From Candidatus Coatesiibacteriota bacterium (GTDB lineage: Bacteria > RBG-13-66-14 > B26-G2 > WVWN01): a stretch of DNA of 34,950 nt. Below, in pieces: positions 25,798 to 34,523 of this stretch (positions are counted from its first letter, which is position 1; every line of letters begins with the position of its first letter). Location: positions 2,250,909 to 2,285,858 of the forward strand of contig CP070633.1 in the NCBI GenBank assembly GCA_020356085.1, given 5' to 3'. The notes under the pieces were generated by a model. That model was not told the origin of the DNA. It worked only from the letters and a program-made list of their open reading frames with translations, and searched no databases. A program made the position numbers and the translations under genes.

Positions 25798-26508
25798 TTA
25801 CCGCCACAACGCCTTGATTTTGCCGAAGGAAGCCGGACGCACGCCGATCAAGCTCTCCCAGCCGAGTTTGTAGACGTAGGCGCCGCCGACCCAGAGGTAG
25901 CCGCCGCCCCAGTCGCAACCCAGCGACGCCGGCACGGCTACCGTTTTGACCACCGACCCCGTCGTCGTTACCGCGTGTAAATACCCGTTCGTGGTGCAGA
26001 TTACGAAGTCGCCGTCGTACCCGGCGTCGTACATGTGAAATCCCACCGGGAAGGAGGCAACGACGCTGCCGGATAACGTCGTCTTGAAAACGTAATTCGG
26101 CATACCGCCGCACCAGAAGTAGGCACCATCGTACGCCAAGCCGCGGTCGAAAAACGGCCACTTGAAAGTATTGAGTAGCGTCCCGGTATGGGTCCAGGTA
26201 TGAATATGGTCGGGGGAGCCGTGCGCCGTGTACACGTACGAGGCGTCCGCAGCGAGCCCGGGTTCGCCGTGGACCGGGGCCTCGCGGTATCCGAAGGAGG
26301 CGACGACGCTCCCGGTGCCCGGATCTAAGCAAAAGACTGTTATGGGATTCGTGTGGTCGTCGTACAGGGACCACAAGTACCTCCCGTCCCAGCCCAAGCT
26401 GTGGCAAAACCCGCGGGGCGCGGGGAACGAGGCTAGGATCTCGCCGAACCGAGCCGCCGGCGCAGCCGAAGCCGCCGCGCAAATCGCGAGAAATACGTAC
26501 CTCCTCAC
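25798..26508 (-). CDS. Exported repeat protein, probably a beta-propeller
   Basis: This 236-residue exported protein has a signal peptide (VRRYVFLAICAAASAAPAA). The mature part has aromatic-rich repeats of about 40 residues with W/Y-D-G-x-Y/F-L/V cores: LGWDGRYLWSLYDD, LAYDGAYFWCGG, AGYDGDFVICTTNG and CDWGGGYLWVGG. Alternating with these are turns of the form TGSVVASF and TGTLLNTF. The pattern suggests five or six blades. The function is unknown. The GTG at 26508 is chosen because GGGAGG lies 6 nt upstream and the signal peptide follows; a frame extension to 26574 would overlap the promoter. It is a single-gene unit, convergent with csp. Confidence 0.75.
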   Translation of the reverse strand: MRRYVFLAICAAASAAPAARFGEILASFPAPRGFCHSLGWDGRYLWSLYDDHTNPITVFCLDPGTGSVVASFGYREAPVHGEPGLAADASYVYTAHGSPDHIHTWTHTGTLLNTFKWPFFDRGLAYDGAYFWCGGMPNYVFKTTLSGSVVASFPVGFHMYDAGYDGDFVICTTNGYLHAVTTTGSVVKTVAVPASLGCDWGGGYLWVGGAYVYKLGWESLIGVRPASFGKIKALWR

Positions 26509-26545
26509 TTTCGACCTCCCTTCGTCAATTACCAGACGGGGTAAT

Positions 26546-26574
26546 ATTATGGCTTCGCGCGGGCCCCGCGTCAA
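26546..26574 (-). promoter_or_regulatory. Promoter of the exported repeat-protein gene
   Basis: On the minus strand TTGACG (26574-26569), 17-nt spacer, CATAAT (26551-26546). Start near 26539, leader about 30 nt. Confidence 0.6.
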
Positions 26575-29128: not shown

Positions 29129-29157
29129 TTGACTTACGCGACGGCGTTCGTAACAAT
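29129..29157 (+). promoter_or_regulatory. Promoter of leader RNA copy 1
   Basis: TTGACT (29129-29134), 17-nt spacer, AACAAT (29152-29157). The block TCTTGACTTA and the TTCGT before the -10 are shared with copy 2 at 33632-33656. Transcription would start near 29164. Confidence 0.6.
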
Positions 29158-29163
29158 AACGTC

Positions 29164-29327
29164 TAAAGGGTTATCGTAGGCTAGGTCCCGGGCTGTTTTC
29201 GGGAAGGGAGCGAACGTGCCCGGTAGGGGAGAAAACAGGGGAAGGGCAAACGGCTGCCGCCTCCGCGGCAACGGTTCGCACGATACTACCCGGGTTCGGC
29301 TAAAGGCCGGCCCGGGGGTTTTTTTAT
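29164..29327 (+). ncRNA. Structured leader RNA, copy 1, ending in an intrinsic terminator
   Basis: About 160 nt of non-coding sequence. The stem CCGGGC (29188-29193)/GCCCGG (29218-29223) encloses 24 nt with GGAAGGGAG. Then come AGAAAACA (29230-29237), GGGAAGGG (29239-29246), a hairpin TGCCGC-CTCC-GCGGCA (29255-29270), GGCAACGG and TACTACCC (29284-29291). The terminator CCCGGG (29289-29294)/CCCGGG (29311-29316) has an inner CGGC/GCCG helix and seven T (29319-29325). All blocks recur with the same spacing at 33692-33824. The next gene begins 76 nt after the T-run. Riboswitch or attenuator is the best inference; an independent small RNA is the alternative. I do not recognise the class. Confidence 0.7.
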
Positions 29328-29403
29328 TATGCGGAAATGGGAATGGGATATAGCCTATCTCGGGACTGTAAGCGTATTATCCTAATGGCCCGGGAGGTCC
29401 AAG

Positions 29404-31158
29404 ATGTCGGCTAAGTTCGCGCTGCGGACGTTCCGGAACGTCGTATTTCGGAACCGTCCGTACTTCGCCCATCTTACGGTCACCCACGGCGGCGACCGCC
29501 GCGGGTTCCGCGCCGCCCGGGGAGGCCGGCCCGAGGAATTGGACGCGGAGGGGATGAAACAGGTCGTCGACATCCTCGACCGGATGGGCGTGGCGGTGCT
29601 GAGCGTCGTGGGGGCCGAAGATCCGCTGTCGCGCCCCGACCTCCCGACGTTACTGACCTATGCCGCCCGTAAAGGTTTGTATACTCGAGTTACCTCTCCC
29701 GGCAAGGTGCCTCTCGAGCGATACGCCGAACTGCTCGATTCGGCGGTCGAGGAAATCGCTTTTTCCCTGGACGGCGTGCAGGGCAACGGCACGCCCTTCA
29801 GTCGCGTCCGGGCAGGGACGTTGGACAAGATCCGCTATCTGAACGATAATCTGCCGCCGGGGAAGCTGCTTACGCTGAAAATCGCCGTGGCCCAAGCCGG
29901 GTGCGAGCAAGTCGAAGACCTCGTCTCCTTCTGCGCGAGGGAATTTCCCAACGCGCTGGTCTGGCTGCAACCGGCACACGTAGGCTCCGACGAGGGGCCC
30001 GCGCCGACGGAGGCGAAAGCCGATCCGGATTATTGGCGGGAGAGCCGCTCACCCACGTTGCTTCATCTCGAATTCTACGAAGAGGAATTGGAAGGCCAGT
30101 ATCGCGCGGAGGTTTCACAATGGGGTTGCCGGGCGGGGCGTATGTTCTTCGCGGTCGAGCCCAACGGCGATTTCTGGCTTTGTAAAGCGCTTCCGCCGCG
30201 CGCCCCGCTTAACGTTCTGGAGGCCGATTTCAGGAAGAAGCTCAAGGAGGCCGATTTCAGCTACCGCCGCGAGTGCGCGGGGTGCAGCTATTCGGGTTAC
30301 GTAGTGACGCAAAAAGGGTTCGAGCCGCGCAACTGGGTCGATATGGCGGTTTTGTGGTGGTTTGCGAACACCCGGCCCGGGGACCGCTGCCGCCAAGTCG
30401 CCGTAAGACACGGCTGGCTCGCCGGCCTGTTAAGTTACTCCTTCGCCAAGACCGTGTCTTGGCCTCGGCGATGGGGCAAGAACGGCAACGGCCGGCCCGC
30501 GCGGGTGCCGGCCGCGCGGTACGACTCTGCCGTTTACCGTTGCGACATCCCGGGGGTGTGGGGAACCTCCGGCCGGCGGGAAAGGATCAATAATAAGCTC
30601 CGGGAGGAGTTGCGGCTTACGCTGGACGACGTCGTCCTGGACGTCGGCTGCTTCGACGGCGACTTGGTCTCGTACCTGCGGCCGTTTTGCAGGAGAACCG
30701 TCGGTATAGACGTCAACGCGGAAGTAATACGCGCCTCGGCGGTGGAAGGGCTGCACGTGATGGACGCCCGCAAGACCGACTTCCCCGACGGGTATTTCAC
30801 GAAGATCGTCTCGAGCCACACCGTCGAGCACGTCACGGACCTGCCGGCGCTCTTTCGCGAGATCGACCGCATTCTCCAGCCCGGCGGCGAGGTGGTACTC
30901 TACTATCCCTGCGAGCTGTGGCGGGGCATGGGGACGATGAGGAACGCGTGGTTCTTCTACCGCAACCCTCTTAAGGGTTACAAGATCCACGTCAACTGGC
31001 TCAGCCATCGGCGGATCGCCGAGCTGATACGGGGGACGGCGCTGGAGGTGTGCCGGAGGAGGTTCTACTTCGACCCGCAGCCGGGATACCTGACCGTGCT
31101 TAAGAAAAGGGAGCGCCGTAGCGGCCGCCTCGCCGGGCCGCATGAAGGCGTCAATTAA
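29404..31158 (+). CDS. Radical-SAM-like protein without cluster cysteines, fused to a SAM methyltransferase
   Basis: This is a 584-residue two-domain protein. Residues about 15-300 follow the radical SAM/SPASM layout (RNRPYFAHLTVTHGGDRRGF; IAFSLDGVQGNGT), but the C-x3-C-x2-C positions read G30, G34 and A37. SPASM-type cysteines remain at C242, C260, C291 and C294, the last two as ECAGCSY, so an auxiliary metal site may persist. Residues about 395-545 are a class I methyltransferase: VVLDVGCFDGDLVSYL, VGIDVNAEV, VSSHTVEHVTDLPALF and LQPGGEVVLYYP. It is first downstream of leader RNA copy 1, with GGGAGG 6 nt before the ATG. The barrel-protein gene begins 14 nt after its stop. The substrate is unknown. 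Confidence 0.8.
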   Translation: MSAKFALRTFRNVVFRNRPYFAHLTVTHGGDRRGFRAARGGRPEELDAEGMKQVVDILDRMGVAVLSVVGAEDPLSRPDLPTLLTYAARKGLYTRVTSPGKVPLERYAELLDSAVEEIAFSLDGVQGNGTPFSRVRAGTLDKIRYLNDNLPPGKLLTLKIAVAQAGCEQVEDLVSFCAREFPNALVWLQPAHVGSDEGPAPTEAKADPDYWRESRSPTLLHLEFYEEELEGQYRAEVSQWGCRAGRMFFAVEPNGDFWLCKALPPRAPLNVLEADFRKKLKEADFSYRRECAGCSYSGYVVTQKGFEPRNWVDMAVLWWFANTRPGDRCRQVAVRHGWLAGLLSYSFAKTVSWPRRWGKNGNGRPARVPAARYDSAVYRCDIPGVWGTSGRRERINNKLREELRLTLDDVVLDVGCFDGDLVSYLRPFCRRTVGIDVNAEVIRASAVEGLHVMDARKTDFPDGYFTKIVSSHTVEHVTDLPALFREIDRILQPGGEVVLYYPCELWRGMGTMRNAWFFYRNPLKGYKIHVNWLSHRRIAELIRGTALEVCRRRFYFDPQPGYLTVLKKRERRSGRLAGPHEGVN

Positions 31159-31172
31159 ATAGGCGGTTAGAG

Positions 31173-31856
31173 ATGAAAACGGTTTTTATTATAGCGATGG
31201 CAACGACGCTCGCGGCCTCAGCCGGGGCCGGAACGCTCCCCAACGCCGCCGACGAGCACGTTATGCGCTTCGGCCCCTTGGCCTCGGCCGTGTTCGAGGC
31301 AAATGTGTTTTATGAAGATCCTTACGTGCCTTGGGCTAGTCCGCGCGCGAAAAGCGAAACGCGCTGGGGCGGCGGCGTCGGCGTTTGGGGTCAGTACGAC
31401 CGTACCTGGATCGGCTGCGCAATGCGCTTCGGCGCCACCATGGGCGACTTCGGCGGGATGTCGACGGTTATAGATTGGGAGAACGAGTACTATATTTATT
31501 TACTAAAGCATAGGCTCCGCCCCTTTTTAATGCCCCTTTTCGGATTCGGCCACACCCAAAGCGAACGCGGCGGCGACCCGCGTTTACCCGTAGGTCTTTA
31601 CGTAGGCGCGCGGTGGGCCGGGGTGGATTCTCCACGTTATTTAACGGCTAGCGTCGGCGGTAAGTACGTTTTCTTAAGCGACGACGAGTGGGGCGGGTGG
31701 GTCGCGTTCCGGGGCCGGGGCTATTTCGGCCTTACTGATACGGTAGCCCTTTACGCGGGGATAGACTTCGGGAGGGGCTTCGTTAACGATTACTACGGAA
31801 GTGAATATGCGGTCTGGCGAGGGCGCTTCTACGTGGGGCCGTCGTGGGCGTTCTAG
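31173..31856 (+). CDS. Small putative outer-membrane barrel protein, copy 1
   Basis: This 227-residue exported protein has a signal peptide of about 20 residues (MKTVFIIAMATTLAASAGAG). The mature part is made of amphipathic strands rich in Tyr, Trp and Gly, and the last residue is Phe (VGPSWAF), which fits a BAM beta-signal. About eight to ten strands would fit. It is paralogous to 33870-34523: shared features include the N-terminal block (NAADEHVMRFGPL versus DALDKNVVRLGPL), the (W/F)WAQYD-type motif, (I/V)DWENEY-I/N-(Y/M)L and the Phe end. The function is unknown. It is cotranscribed with the enzyme-like gene before it and the lipoprotein after it. Confidence 0.72.
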   Translation: MKTVFIIAMATTLAASAGAGTLPNAADEHVMRFGPLASAVFEANVFYEDPYVPWASPRAKSETRWGGGVGVWGQYDRTWIGCAMRFGATMGDFGGMSTVIDWENEYYIYLLKHRLRPFLMPLFGFGHTQSERGGDPRLPVGLYVGARWAGVDSPRYLTASVGGKYVFLSDDEWGGWVAFRGRGYFGLTDTVALYAGIDFGRGFVNDYYGSEYAVWRGRFYVGPSWAF

Positions 31857-31910
31857 GCTACCGCTTTTTAGCTTTCACGCTCTCCAGGCAGTCCTCGAGG
31901 AGATAAGAAG

Positions 31911-33479
31911 ATGAAAATGCAAAAAAACCTAGTCCGCCTTATTTCCATATTGATAATCCCCATTTTCCTCGGCGCCTGCACCGGTTATAACCGCGTCGTT
32001 TTGCCCAAAGACGGAAAATTGCCGGTCCAAGAGAAGGCCGTCATCCTGCACCGGGGGTTCGATACGTTTTACCTTCACGACGTTAAGGTAACCAACGGCC
32101 AAATAGACGCGTTGGCGTATAAAGACCGGGCCGAGCCTCCCCGCAGTAAAGACCAGGAGCTGCATATTTATGCCCTCCCGGCGCTCGAGTTACCCGACCC
32201 GCTCCCCGCGCGGGCGTCGATACCGTTCGCGGCGATCGAGAGGGTTGAGGTGTACGACGTCAGCACCGGCAAGACGATTTTCTACACCGTATGCGTAGGC
32301 CTCGCGATCACGGTGGCGGCGATCGCCGTGGCGGCTGTTATCATCGCACTCCTTAAGACCTCGTGCCCTTTCATCTATACCTTCGACGGGGAGAGGTACG
32401 AGTTCGCCGGTGAGATCTTCAGCGGGACCGTTTATCCTCCTCTTGAGCGCCACGACTATTTACCCCTGCCGGCGTTGAAAGCCGTCGACGGCGCGTACCG
32501 CCTAAAACTGGCGAACGAGGTCCGCGAGGTCCAGCACACGAACCTAACCGAGCTACTGGTTATCGACCATCCCGTCGGCGCGGAGGTCTTGGTCGACAAA
32601 TACGGCGTTCCGCGCACGCTGATTGAACCGCAATCCCCCTCCAAGGCAGTGACGCTCGGAGGCGAGGACGTTCTCGCCGGCGTCGCCGTCGCGGATGACG
32701 CGTGCTATATGGGCGACGTGCCCGAGGACACGAAGGGCGACGTCGACGGCGTCGTACTGACCTTCGACCGGCCGCGGGAGGCCTCGGAAGCGAAATTGGT
32801 CGTTCAAGGTAGGAATACGTTCTGGTTGGATTATGTCTACGGTCAATTTTGCGAACTCTTCGGCGACCGTTATCACGAGTGGTACGAAGGGCAGAAAGAG
32901 GCCCGGGCGGAGAAAATCATCCAGTGGTCACTCGAGCAGGGGATCCTCCTGTCGGTATACGTCGAGGACGGCGGCGAGTGGCGGTTCGTCGACTACTATC
33001 ATATCGCCGGCCCCATGGCGGCCAAGCGGGACGTACTGTCATTTGCTCTCCCCGCCTCGGATAAGGGGAAGGTAAAGGTCAAGCTGGAGTTCGGGCCGAT
33101 GTTCCGGGAAATTGACTACGTCGCAATGGACTTCTCCACCGACTTGCCGGTGCAAATCCATAACGTTCTGCCGGCGAAAGCCTTCGACGAAACGGGCCGG
33201 GACGTGGCTCCCCTGCTACGAGCCGACGACGGCCTCTACTACGTGCAACCCGAAATCGGCGAGTACGCGGTTTTAACTTTCCCCGCCCCCGAGGCGGCGG
33301 AGGGGCGCGCCCGTACGACGATATTGCATACCAAAGGCCACTACGAGGTATTGAGGGACCCGCAGGGCAAACCGGACCTTGCACTACTTCATTCATTTGA
33401 AAAGGCCGGCCGGTTTATTGAATTCTCACAGGAACTATTCCTCCATTACTACGGGACGATGGTGAGTCGTGAGGGATAA
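31911..33479 (+). CDS. Lipoprotein with internal membrane segment and C-terminal beta-rich domain, copy 1
   Basis: This 522-residue lipoprotein has lipobox LGAC with Cys23. Residues about 25-115 are a beta-rich domain (YNRVVLPKDGKLPVQEKAV onward) shared with the gene at 34673. A long hydrophobic helix lies at about 122-146. Immediately after it comes a domain opening CPFIYTFDGERYEFAGE and continuing with ERHDYLPLPAL and LANEVREVQHTNLTEL. I recall similar CPFIY-type domains in envelope proteins of several phyla, but could not check. A lipid anchor plus an internal helix is unusual and may place it across or along a membrane. GGAG lies 9 nt before the ATG; the stop is followed after 75 nt by a terminator. 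Confidence 0.75.
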   Translation: MKMQKNLVRLISILIIPIFLGACTGYNRVVLPKDGKLPVQEKAVILHRGFDTFYLHDVKVTNGQIDALAYKDRAEPPRSKDQELHIYALPALELPDPLPARASIPFAAIERVEVYDVSTGKTIFYTVCVGLAITVAAIAVAAVIIALLKTSCPFIYTFDGERYEFAGEIFSGTVYPPLERHDYLPLPALKAVDGAYRLKLANEVREVQHTNLTELLVIDHPVGAEVLVDKYGVPRTLIEPQSPSKAVTLGGEDVLAGVAVADDACYMGDVPEDTKGDVDGVVLTFDRPREASEAKLVVQGRNTFWLDYVYGQFCELFGDRYHEWYEGQKEARAEKIIQWSLEQGILLSVYVEDGGEWRFVDYYHIAGPMAAKRDVLSFALPASDKGKVKVKLEFGPMFREIDYVAMDFSTDLPVQIHNVLPAKAFDETGRDVAPLLRADDGLYYVQPEIGEYAVLTFPAPEAAEGRARTTILHTKGHYEVLRDPQGKPDLALLHSFEKAGRFIEFSQELFLHYYGTMVSREG

Positions 33480-33554
33480 GAGGTCCCCTCTCTCGGCCGA
33501 GTGAAGGCGTTGTTTAAGTAGCGATATTCGCGGCAGGAAATACCCGGTAATAAA

Positions 33555-33580
33555 AAGGGCCCTCGCGGGCCCTTAATTTT
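33555..33580 (+). terminator. Terminator of cassette copy 1
   Basis: AAGGGCCC, loop TCGC, GGGCCCTT followed by AATTTT. The stem is perfect and the tail T-rich after two A. It isolates copy 2 from read-through of copy 1. Confidence 0.75.
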
Positions 33581-33633
33581 ATCGGACGAGGGGGGCGAAC
33601 CTGCGAGGGTAAAGGCAAAGGCTTATTTAGGTC

Positions 33634-33662
33634 TTGACTTATACGAGGCGGTTCGTGATACT
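33634..33662 (+). promoter_or_regulatory. Promoter of leader RNA copy 2
   Basis: TTGACT (33634-33639), 17-nt spacer, GATACT (33657-33662); start near 33669. No other promoter was seen between here and the ATG at 33870. Confidence 0.6.
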
Positions 33663-33668
33663 GAGCTC

Positions 33669-33826
33669 AAGGGACTATTGGAAGCTAAAATCCGGGCAAA
33701 GTTCAGGAAGGGAGAGAGCATGCCCGGCAAGCGAGAAAACAAGGGAAGGGCCGGCAGTTGCCGCTCCCCGGCAACGGATAGTACCGTACTACCCAGGTTT
33801 GGCTAAAGGCCGGCCTGGGGTTTTCC
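33669..33826 (+). ncRNA. Structured leader RNA, copy 2, ending in an intrinsic terminator
   Basis: The order of elements is as in copy 1: CCGGGC (33692-33697)/GCCCGG (33722-33727) around GGAAGGGAG, AGAAAACA (33734-33741), GGGAAGGG (33743-33750), hairpin GTTGCCG-CTCCC-CGGCAAC (33757-33775), and TACTACCC (33787-33794). The terminator CCCAGG (33792-33797)/CCTGGG (33814-33819) has GGCTAAAGGCCGG as upper part, then TTTT. Relative to copy 1 the terminator stem changes G to A on one side and C to T on the other, which keeps pairing. The barrel-protein ATG lies 46 nt after the T-run with no promoter between, so its expression should need read-through. This supports an attenuator or riboswitch over an independent small RNA. 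Confidence 0.72.
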
Positions 33827-33869: not shown

Positions 33870-34523
33870 ATGAAGAAAGCAATCGTTTTAATTACGGCGT
33901 GTGCGCTAATTACGGCGGCGGCCGCGTGGGCCGCAAACATACCCGACGCGTTGGATAAGAACGTGGTGCGGCTCGGGCCGCTACTTACCGGCGCGTTCGA
34001 AAGGTCGTCGTACGAATGGTGGGACGAGCACGGGCCCCACGTGGAGAGGACTACTGCGGGCGGCGGCGGAGCCGCTTTCTGGGCTCAATACGACAGTTCG
34101 TGGTTCGGCGTCGAGGTCCGGCTCAGCGGCGTATACGTCGGTAACGGGTTTTCCGCGACGTACGTTAACTGGGAAAACGAATATAATATGTATCTTATTA
34201 AAGGGAAATTCCGCCCGTATATAACGCCCGCGGCGGGCCTGGGCTACTTAGAAAGGGGGGGGCGCGCGGAAATGCGCCCGGTCGCCGCTATCTATTTCGG
34301 GATCCGTTTAAACTCGGTTGTTTCGCCGTTCTACATGACTTTCGACGGCGGTTATAAGTACATAGATGACTGGTGGCACGGCATAATACGTAACCGCTAC
34401 TTCTTTAGCCTTACCGAGGCGGTCGCGCTCCGCGCCGGCGTTGAATTCGGCGCCGACCTCGACTACCGGGGGACCTCCCGGGTGGCCGCTCGCCTCGAAG
34501 CGGGCCCTTCGTTCAGCTTCTAG
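33870..34523 (+). CDS. Small putative outer-membrane barrel protein, copy 2
   Basis: This 217-residue paralogue of 31173-31856 has a signal peptide ending near AAAAWAANIP. Tyr/Trp-rich amphipathic strands follow, including FWAQYDSSWFGVEVRL, VNWENEYNMYLIKGKFRPYI and DGGYKYIDDWW, and the terminal Phe is in AGPSFSF. The chain end supports insertion by the BAM machinery. AAGGAG lies 7 nt before the ATG. It is the first gene downstream of leader RNA copy 2 and is followed after 149 nt by a lipoprotein gene. Adhesion, transport or structural roles are all possible. Confidence 0.72.
   Translation: MKKAIVLITACALITAAAAWAANIPDALDKNVVRLGPLLTGAFERSSYEWWDEHGPHVERTTAGGGGAAFWAQYDSSWFGVEVRLSGVYVGNGFSATYVNWENEYNMYLIKGKFRPYITPAAGLGYLERGGRAEMRPVAAIYFGIRLNSVVSPFYMTFDGGYKYIDDWWHGIIRNRYFFSLTEAVALRAGVEFGADLDYRGTSRVAARLEAGPSFSF

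Follow-up and report, generated by a model that had tools for sequence, protein, structure and literature searches.

A repeated leader RNA whose reading frame runs into its terminator, probably a ribosome-mediated attenuator of exported-protein genes

What do two closely similar leader RNAs, each starting at a promoter-like site and ending in an intrinsic terminator, do for the genes behind them? The question is raised by a 34,950-nucleotide (nt) stretch of contig CP070633.1 (the window, meaning the whole stretch that was analyzed), in which the first-pass annotation had described two copies of a structured leader, copy 1 and copy 2 (Table 1), had expected regulated read-through and had proposed a new riboswitch or attenuator, or else a paired small-RNA family. 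We assign the leader, with a probability of roughly 0.64, as a ribosome-mediated transcription attenuator, in which a translating ribosome would act as antiterminator; the expected logic of regulated read-through is supported. The leader is a conserved structured RNA with covarying helices and a terminator at its end. The multi-copy leader family is new, while its mechanism class is already known from pil1 of Streptococcus gallolyticus.

The two copies can be aligned end to end, starting at the -35 box and finishing with the T tract, which bears out that both leaders share sequence and have related promoters. In the genome that contains the window, a single 2.34-Mb contig with 78% completeness, BLAST returned copy 2 at E=3.7e-26 and a third copy, located elsewhere, at E=3.4e-38, among seven leader copies in all. 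A first covariance model built from those seven found 12 copies at E<1e-6 in the same genome and more in three genomes of the same genus, with no convincing copies in 94 other genomes. Given the BLAST E-values and these 12 copies, the similarity of copies 1 and 2 is far beyond chance, and the two, although real, belong to a set of a dozen in the genome rather than forming a pair. A second model, built from 22 copies, gave 34 copies at E<1e-4, distributed as 12, 4, 8, and 10 over four genomes of a single uncultured bacterial genus labelled Candidatus Zixiibacteriota; ten other genomes of the phylum gave two weak matches and nothing more. Weak matches outside the genus (G018, G022, G004, and G008; E=0.001-0.007) were rejected as chance, with no promoter or leader pattern in L025, L026, L086, and L087. 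A pattern scan of public genomes likewise confined the family to two records labelled Candidatus Zixiibacteriota, its matches in actinobacteria, alphaproteobacteria, and others being dismissed as chance fits to a terminator-like hairpin only, and no leader match was found in viral contigs, plasmids, or phages.

The description of the RNA as unrecognized stands after comparison with Rfam. The window gave no match at the gathering threshold, 20 further copies gave nothing at E<0.1 except two neighbouring tRNAs, and copy 1 alone gave a single chance match at E=3.5. Literature searches brought up no paper linking Zixibacteria to riboswitches, noncoding RNAs, or NHL repeats.

Minimum free energy folding of the two window leaders singly indicated no unusual stability (z of -0.89 and -1.17), and covariation was therefore needed to judge the structure. 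In the 22-copy alignment, compared with 500 shuffles, the hairpins P1 and P2 together with the terminator form 95% standard pairs, with 8 pairs altered on both sides, and none of the 500 shuffles equalled them in cells paired; covarying helices are thus supported, as is the compensatory change between the terminator stems of copies 1 and 2, which differ by one pair, A-U to G-C. Weaker than these three is a further pairing on the outside, P0, between alignment columns 24-28 and 123-127. P0 is the top pairing of the 5' region free of gap-column dominance in an unbiased scan, with 77% of cells paired and 6 both-sided changes, and its covariation score was matched by 6 of 500 shuffles. Where P0 extends further out and runs into the start of the terminator, its support did not rise above shuffles, and the upper part of P0 was rejected as an established pairing.

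Conservation within the P1 loop that has no structural reason coincides with a ribosome-binding site. The conserved bases are a purine Shine-Dalgarno (SD) box, with a mean energy of -8.3 kcal/mol against the anti-SD sequence, and the AU of an AUG, the following G65 lying in the stem (G52 in 20/22, A63 in 21/22, and U64 in 22/22 copies). When the three reading frames were compared in 33 copies, with an early stop defined as one more than 20 nt before the terminator, the frame from the P1 start had an early stop in 1/33, and the other two in 23/33 and 10/33. In the remaining 32 copies the leader frame ends near, within, or beyond the terminator: 16 have the stop inside the hairpin (window copy 2 among them, with open reading frame [ORF] lengths of 75, 84, or 87 nt), 5 have it just before, and 11 beyond. 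Where the ORF ends ahead of the hairpin (L018, L031, and L040), the UAA of the loop is gone. The common ORF end, ATA CTA CCC AGG TTC GGC TAA, contains codons uncommon in window genes (CTA is used for 5% of Leu and AGG for 5% of Arg), but the terminator also dictates these bases. Another ATG, lying upstream within the -10 region (MARKGE...), was rejected as the start, as it would precede the transcription start inferred from the promoter position. The earlier annotation had treated translation of the region as refuting a structured RNA; the comparative evidence does point to translation, but structure is supported too, and both hold.

Natural variants of the leader offer an additional view of its frame. 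In four fused copies (L039, L041, L042, and L091) the frame stays open across the hairpin and T tract into the exported downstream protein. There the fused frames code for a stretch resembling a signal peptide, which in three of the four ends like a lipobox (LLSC). L090 consists of the promoter, the 5' part, and the purine box, with nothing of the leader thereafter; as the gene start comes directly after it, the purine box would act as the SD of the gene. Judged from sequence, these fused and truncated variants are hard to explain without leader translation. As a separate observation, two copies have a foreign fragment upstream of P1, to which the leader's 3' part is attached, from a papain-like peptidase in L041 and from a cysteine desulfurase in L042; these junctions are either recombination products or chimeric contigs.

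What comparison of the copies shows at the sequence level is the family with its helices and ribosome site, a frame that reaches the terminator, and the natural fusions; from these we infer the regulation itself and its direction. Transcription would start at a strong promoter about 10 nt upstream of the conserved region, and the polymerase would make a leader of about 150 nt comprising P1, with the SD box in its loop and the start codon in its 3' strand, then an ORF of about 25-28 codons enclosing P2, and finally the terminator, which the ORF would enter and most often end in at the loop UAA. As long as no ribosome is close to the ORF end, the terminator would fold and transcription would halt; a ribosome sitting on the final codons or on the stop codon would cover the terminator's 5' arm, and the polymerase could proceed into the exported-protein gene. 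The act of translation rather than the peptide would be decisive, and P1 (possibly also P0) may set the ease of leader translation. Read-through might report brisk initiation, slow elongation over the last codons of the frame, or an additional factor acting on P1. Computed folding is consistent with this scheme. As free RNA, 17/17 copies tested form 10-13 terminator pairs, and when a ribosome footprint is blocked in the computation, the terminator retains 0 pairs with the footprint at the stop codon, 0-3 at the CUA codon, and all at codon 8. Promoter, leader ORF with SD, intrinsic terminator, and downstream same-strand gene, the features of an attenuator, are all found. It could be speculated, although we think it rather unlikely, that the folded P0/P1/P2 domain senses a molecule or protein and thereby controls access to the leader start codon, the ribosome being the antiterminator of a genus-wide regulon for exported proteins, and that the cassette spreads between genes and fuses in frame, its terminator becoming part of a signal peptide.

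Several observations weigh against attenuation by a translating ribosome. The leader peptide has a ratio of nonsynonymous to synonymous differences (pN/pS) of 0.86, and differences at the three codon positions are 0.261/0.266/0.296; because the amino acid sequence is hardly constrained, it gives no protein-level proof of translation, and a conserved peptide product was rejected on the same value. When neutral evolution was simulated along the tree of the 22 aligned copies, zero early stops had P=0.003-0.05, varying with the root sequence; taken alone, this is only moderate evidence for the frame, and the frame counts are not independent, the copies being related. The start-codon equivalent is AUA in three copies (L022, L033, and L042), the start was chosen by eye in four diverged ones (L020, L078, L088, and L091), and the AUG lies partly within the P1 stem. 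Copy 1 of the window itself carries a one-base frameshift, which puts the TAA of its terminator loop (29301-29303) out of frame and moves the end of its ORF to 29353, beyond the terminator. The shift may be a true indel or an assembly error, and the low completeness of the single-contig genome would fit an error; even so shifted, the ORF would still reach the terminator under the attenuator model.

The riboswitch favoured at first, in which a P0/P1/P2 three-way junction would bind a small molecule and control the terminator while the reading frame is incidental, appears less likely than a translated attenuator, and we regard it as improbable. It would give a role to P0, whose outer part meets the terminator's first bases, and it would suit both the empty Rfam search and a multi-copy distribution ahead of exported genes, as seen for some second-messenger riboswitches. 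However, P0 is broken in many copies, its outer part lacks covariation above shuffles, L088 is without the CCGGGC 5' strand of P1, and the leader matches no known riboswitch class. SD box and AUG already account for the conserved loop bases, and a riboswitch gives no reason for the preservation of the frame to or through the terminator in 32/33 copies, for stop codons in the loop, or for the fusions. Less probable again is a structured leader served by an RNA-binding protein regulator, or a constitutive attenuator that merely lowers expression with no signal. The strong terminator folded in every copy would agree with this, and a start codon hidden by P1 would suit a protein or antisense regulator, but no regulator was identified and the frame reaching the terminator is left unexplained by such a leader alone.

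A reading of the leader ORF as a gene of its own for a small protein, with the downstream genes independent of it, is very improbable in our view. Such a gene would have its own promoter, SD, ORF, and terminator, as seen here, and the recurring peptide ends MPG... and ...LPRFG could be read in its favour; against it stand the pN/pS value, the frameshifted copies, and downstream starts that often lie 16-26 nt past the terminator, too close for a promoter. In the window, no promoter-like site lies between the terminator and the next gene of either copy, as had been claimed for copy 2 and its barrel-protein gene, and the two leader promoters are the sole promoter-like sites near the leaders. The same short distances, and a family far larger than a pair, speak against the paired small-RNA family suggested earlier; a trans-acting small RNA would fit the discrete promoter-to-terminator unit, but a same-strand gene follows directly in every examined copy with a callable gene, and covariation and frame pattern favour a cis element, leaving this the least credible of the explanations.

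An attenuator of the kind preferred here can be placed beside characterized systems. In pil1, expression is high when the leader peptide stops inside the hairpin or near it, through ribosome-induced destabilization, and low when the start codon or SD is mutated, a model shown genetically (PMC3894217). Like pil1 and pil3, the present leaders place a leader ORF and then a stem-loop terminator ahead of surface-protein genes (PMC3894217); they differ in their conserved P1 and P2, the start codon within P1, and 4-12 copies per genome; pil1 switches through the number of GCAGA repeats (phase variation), and no such repeats were seen in this family. The ilvB-II motif was likewise a structured RNA candidate at first and was later identified as a leader ORF (PMC10272879), and related upstream ORF (uORF) candidates have been described (PMC8632094). 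As in these motifs, a conserved structured leader was recognized before its ORF, lengths are divisible by three, and the element is assigned as an attenuator (PMC10272879, PMC8632094). Unlike ilvB-II, which occurs once per genome with abundant branched-chain amino acid codons, the family has many copies and no amino acid-specific codon run. It shares with attenuators of the trp, his, and ilv type a leader ORF and a terminator whose folding would be set by ribosome position, but the leader peptides examined contain no codon run for the operon's amino acid, the downstream genes encode mostly exported proteins instead of biosynthetic enzymes, and a competing antiterminator is not established here. 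In Escherichia coli, a closely following ribosome keeps terminator hairpins from forming, as described in a study of EF-P (PMC5021804); that transcription-translation coupling is general and acts inside genes, whereas here a dedicated, repeated leader would be used.

The genes served by the leader are largely those of exported proteins. Most copies precede genes whose products have a signal-peptide-like N terminus (judged by eye), among them NHL beta-propellers, one PD40 propeller, and both barrel-like proteins and lipoproteins. The terminator and the next start codon are mostly 16-87 nt apart. L013, ahead of a MutL-like gene, is an exception, as is copy 1: the claim that both window leaders precede envelope-protein genes applies to copy 2, whereas copy 1 is followed first by a methyltransferase-domain gene and only then by barrel-like and lipoprotein-like ones. 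Genome G000 has a large expansion of NHL beta-propeller genes, many of which lie in tandem arrays, and several of these arrays are headed by the leader.

Some further observations concern the surroundings of the leaders. In many promoters of the family, for example those of L009 and L038, the -10 box is followed by a GC-rich GGCTCGC or GGCTCTG, a pattern resembling that of promoters under stringent control. At window positions 33555-33574, a separate stem-loop, with a perfect GGGCCC stem and then a T-rich stretch, is a both-strand terminator for the gene preceding copy 2. Many exported proteins of the genus share the C-terminal motif P-[TA]-S-[LFVW]-G-[RK]-[VI]-K-A-[LV]-[FWY]-R, for example VVPASLGKVKALFR and VRPASFGKIKALWR, which looks like a putative sorting tag and had no match among NCBIfam models.

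Table 1. Coordinates of the leaders, their parts, and associated genes (positions in the window unless a genome is named; aa, amino acids)
Feature	Coordinates	Strand	Remarks
Copy 1 promoter-like site	29129-29157	+	TTGACT-17-AACAAT; position conserved across the family
Copy 1 leader	29164-29327	+	One of two leaders in the window
Copy 1 P0, 5' strand	29168-29177	+	GGGTTATCGT; pairing possible with 29280-29291; read from sequence; P0 moderately supported in the family
Copy 1 hairpin P1	29188-29223	+	CCGGGC 29188-29193 / GCCCGG 29218-29223; purine SD-like box in loop, start codon at 3' strand
Copy 1 leader ORF	29216-29353	+	GTG start, 45 aa; one-base shift relative to most copies; passes through terminator
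Copy 1 hairpin P2	29255-29270	+	TGCCGC/GCGGCA
Copy 1 P0, 3' strand	29280-29291	+	ACGATACTACCC; overlaps first bases of terminator; read from sequence
Copy 1 intrinsic terminator	29289-29326	+	CCCGGGTTCGGCTAAAGGCCGGCCCGGG and T tract
Methyltransferase-domain protein, 584 aa	29404-31158	+	Methyltransf_23, E=4.9e-17; first gene after copy 1
Barrel-like exported protein, 227 aa	31173-31856	+	No Pfam match; by eye like product of 33870-34523
Lipoprotein-like protein, 522 aa	31911-33479	+	No Pfam match
Copy 2 promoter-like site	33634-33662	+	TTGACT-17-GATACT
Copy 2 leader	33669-33826	+	One of two leaders in the window
Copy 2 hairpin P1	33692-33727	+	CCGGGC 33692-33697 / GCCCGG 33722-33727; SD-like AGGAAGGGAG in loop
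Copy 2 leader ORF	33720-33806	+	ATG 33720 to TAA 33804-33806 in terminator loop; MPGKRENKGRAGSCRSPATDSTVLPRFG, then stop
Copy 2 hairpin P2	33758-33774	+	TTGCCG/CGGCAA; read from sequence
Copy 2 intrinsic terminator	33792-33824	+	CCCAGGTTTGGCTAAAGGCCGGCCTGGG and T tract; leader stop codon inside loop
Barrel-like exported protein, 217 aa	33870-34523	+	Directly after copy 2, no intervening promoter-like site
C-terminal motif carrier, window	25798-26574	-	
C-terminal motif carriers, other			Proteins after L008, L022, L032, and L088
NHL array examples, genome G000	C1:1275257-1279401, C1:605648-608385		

For the discovery of RNA motifs, these leaders carry a caution, as a leader with covarying helices and no counterpart in Rfam may still be translated. 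Attenuators with a leader ORF are usually described one per operon and serve amino acid biosynthesis or antibiotic resistance. In the uncultured lineage studied here, each genome has 4-12 copies of one and the same element, most of them in front of genes whose exported products are beta-propellers, barrel-like proteins, or lipoproteins. Its natural variants, with a stop in the loop, a stop just before it, read-through, in-frame fusion, or truncation to the ribosome site, form a ready-made mutational series for relating ribosome position to termination.

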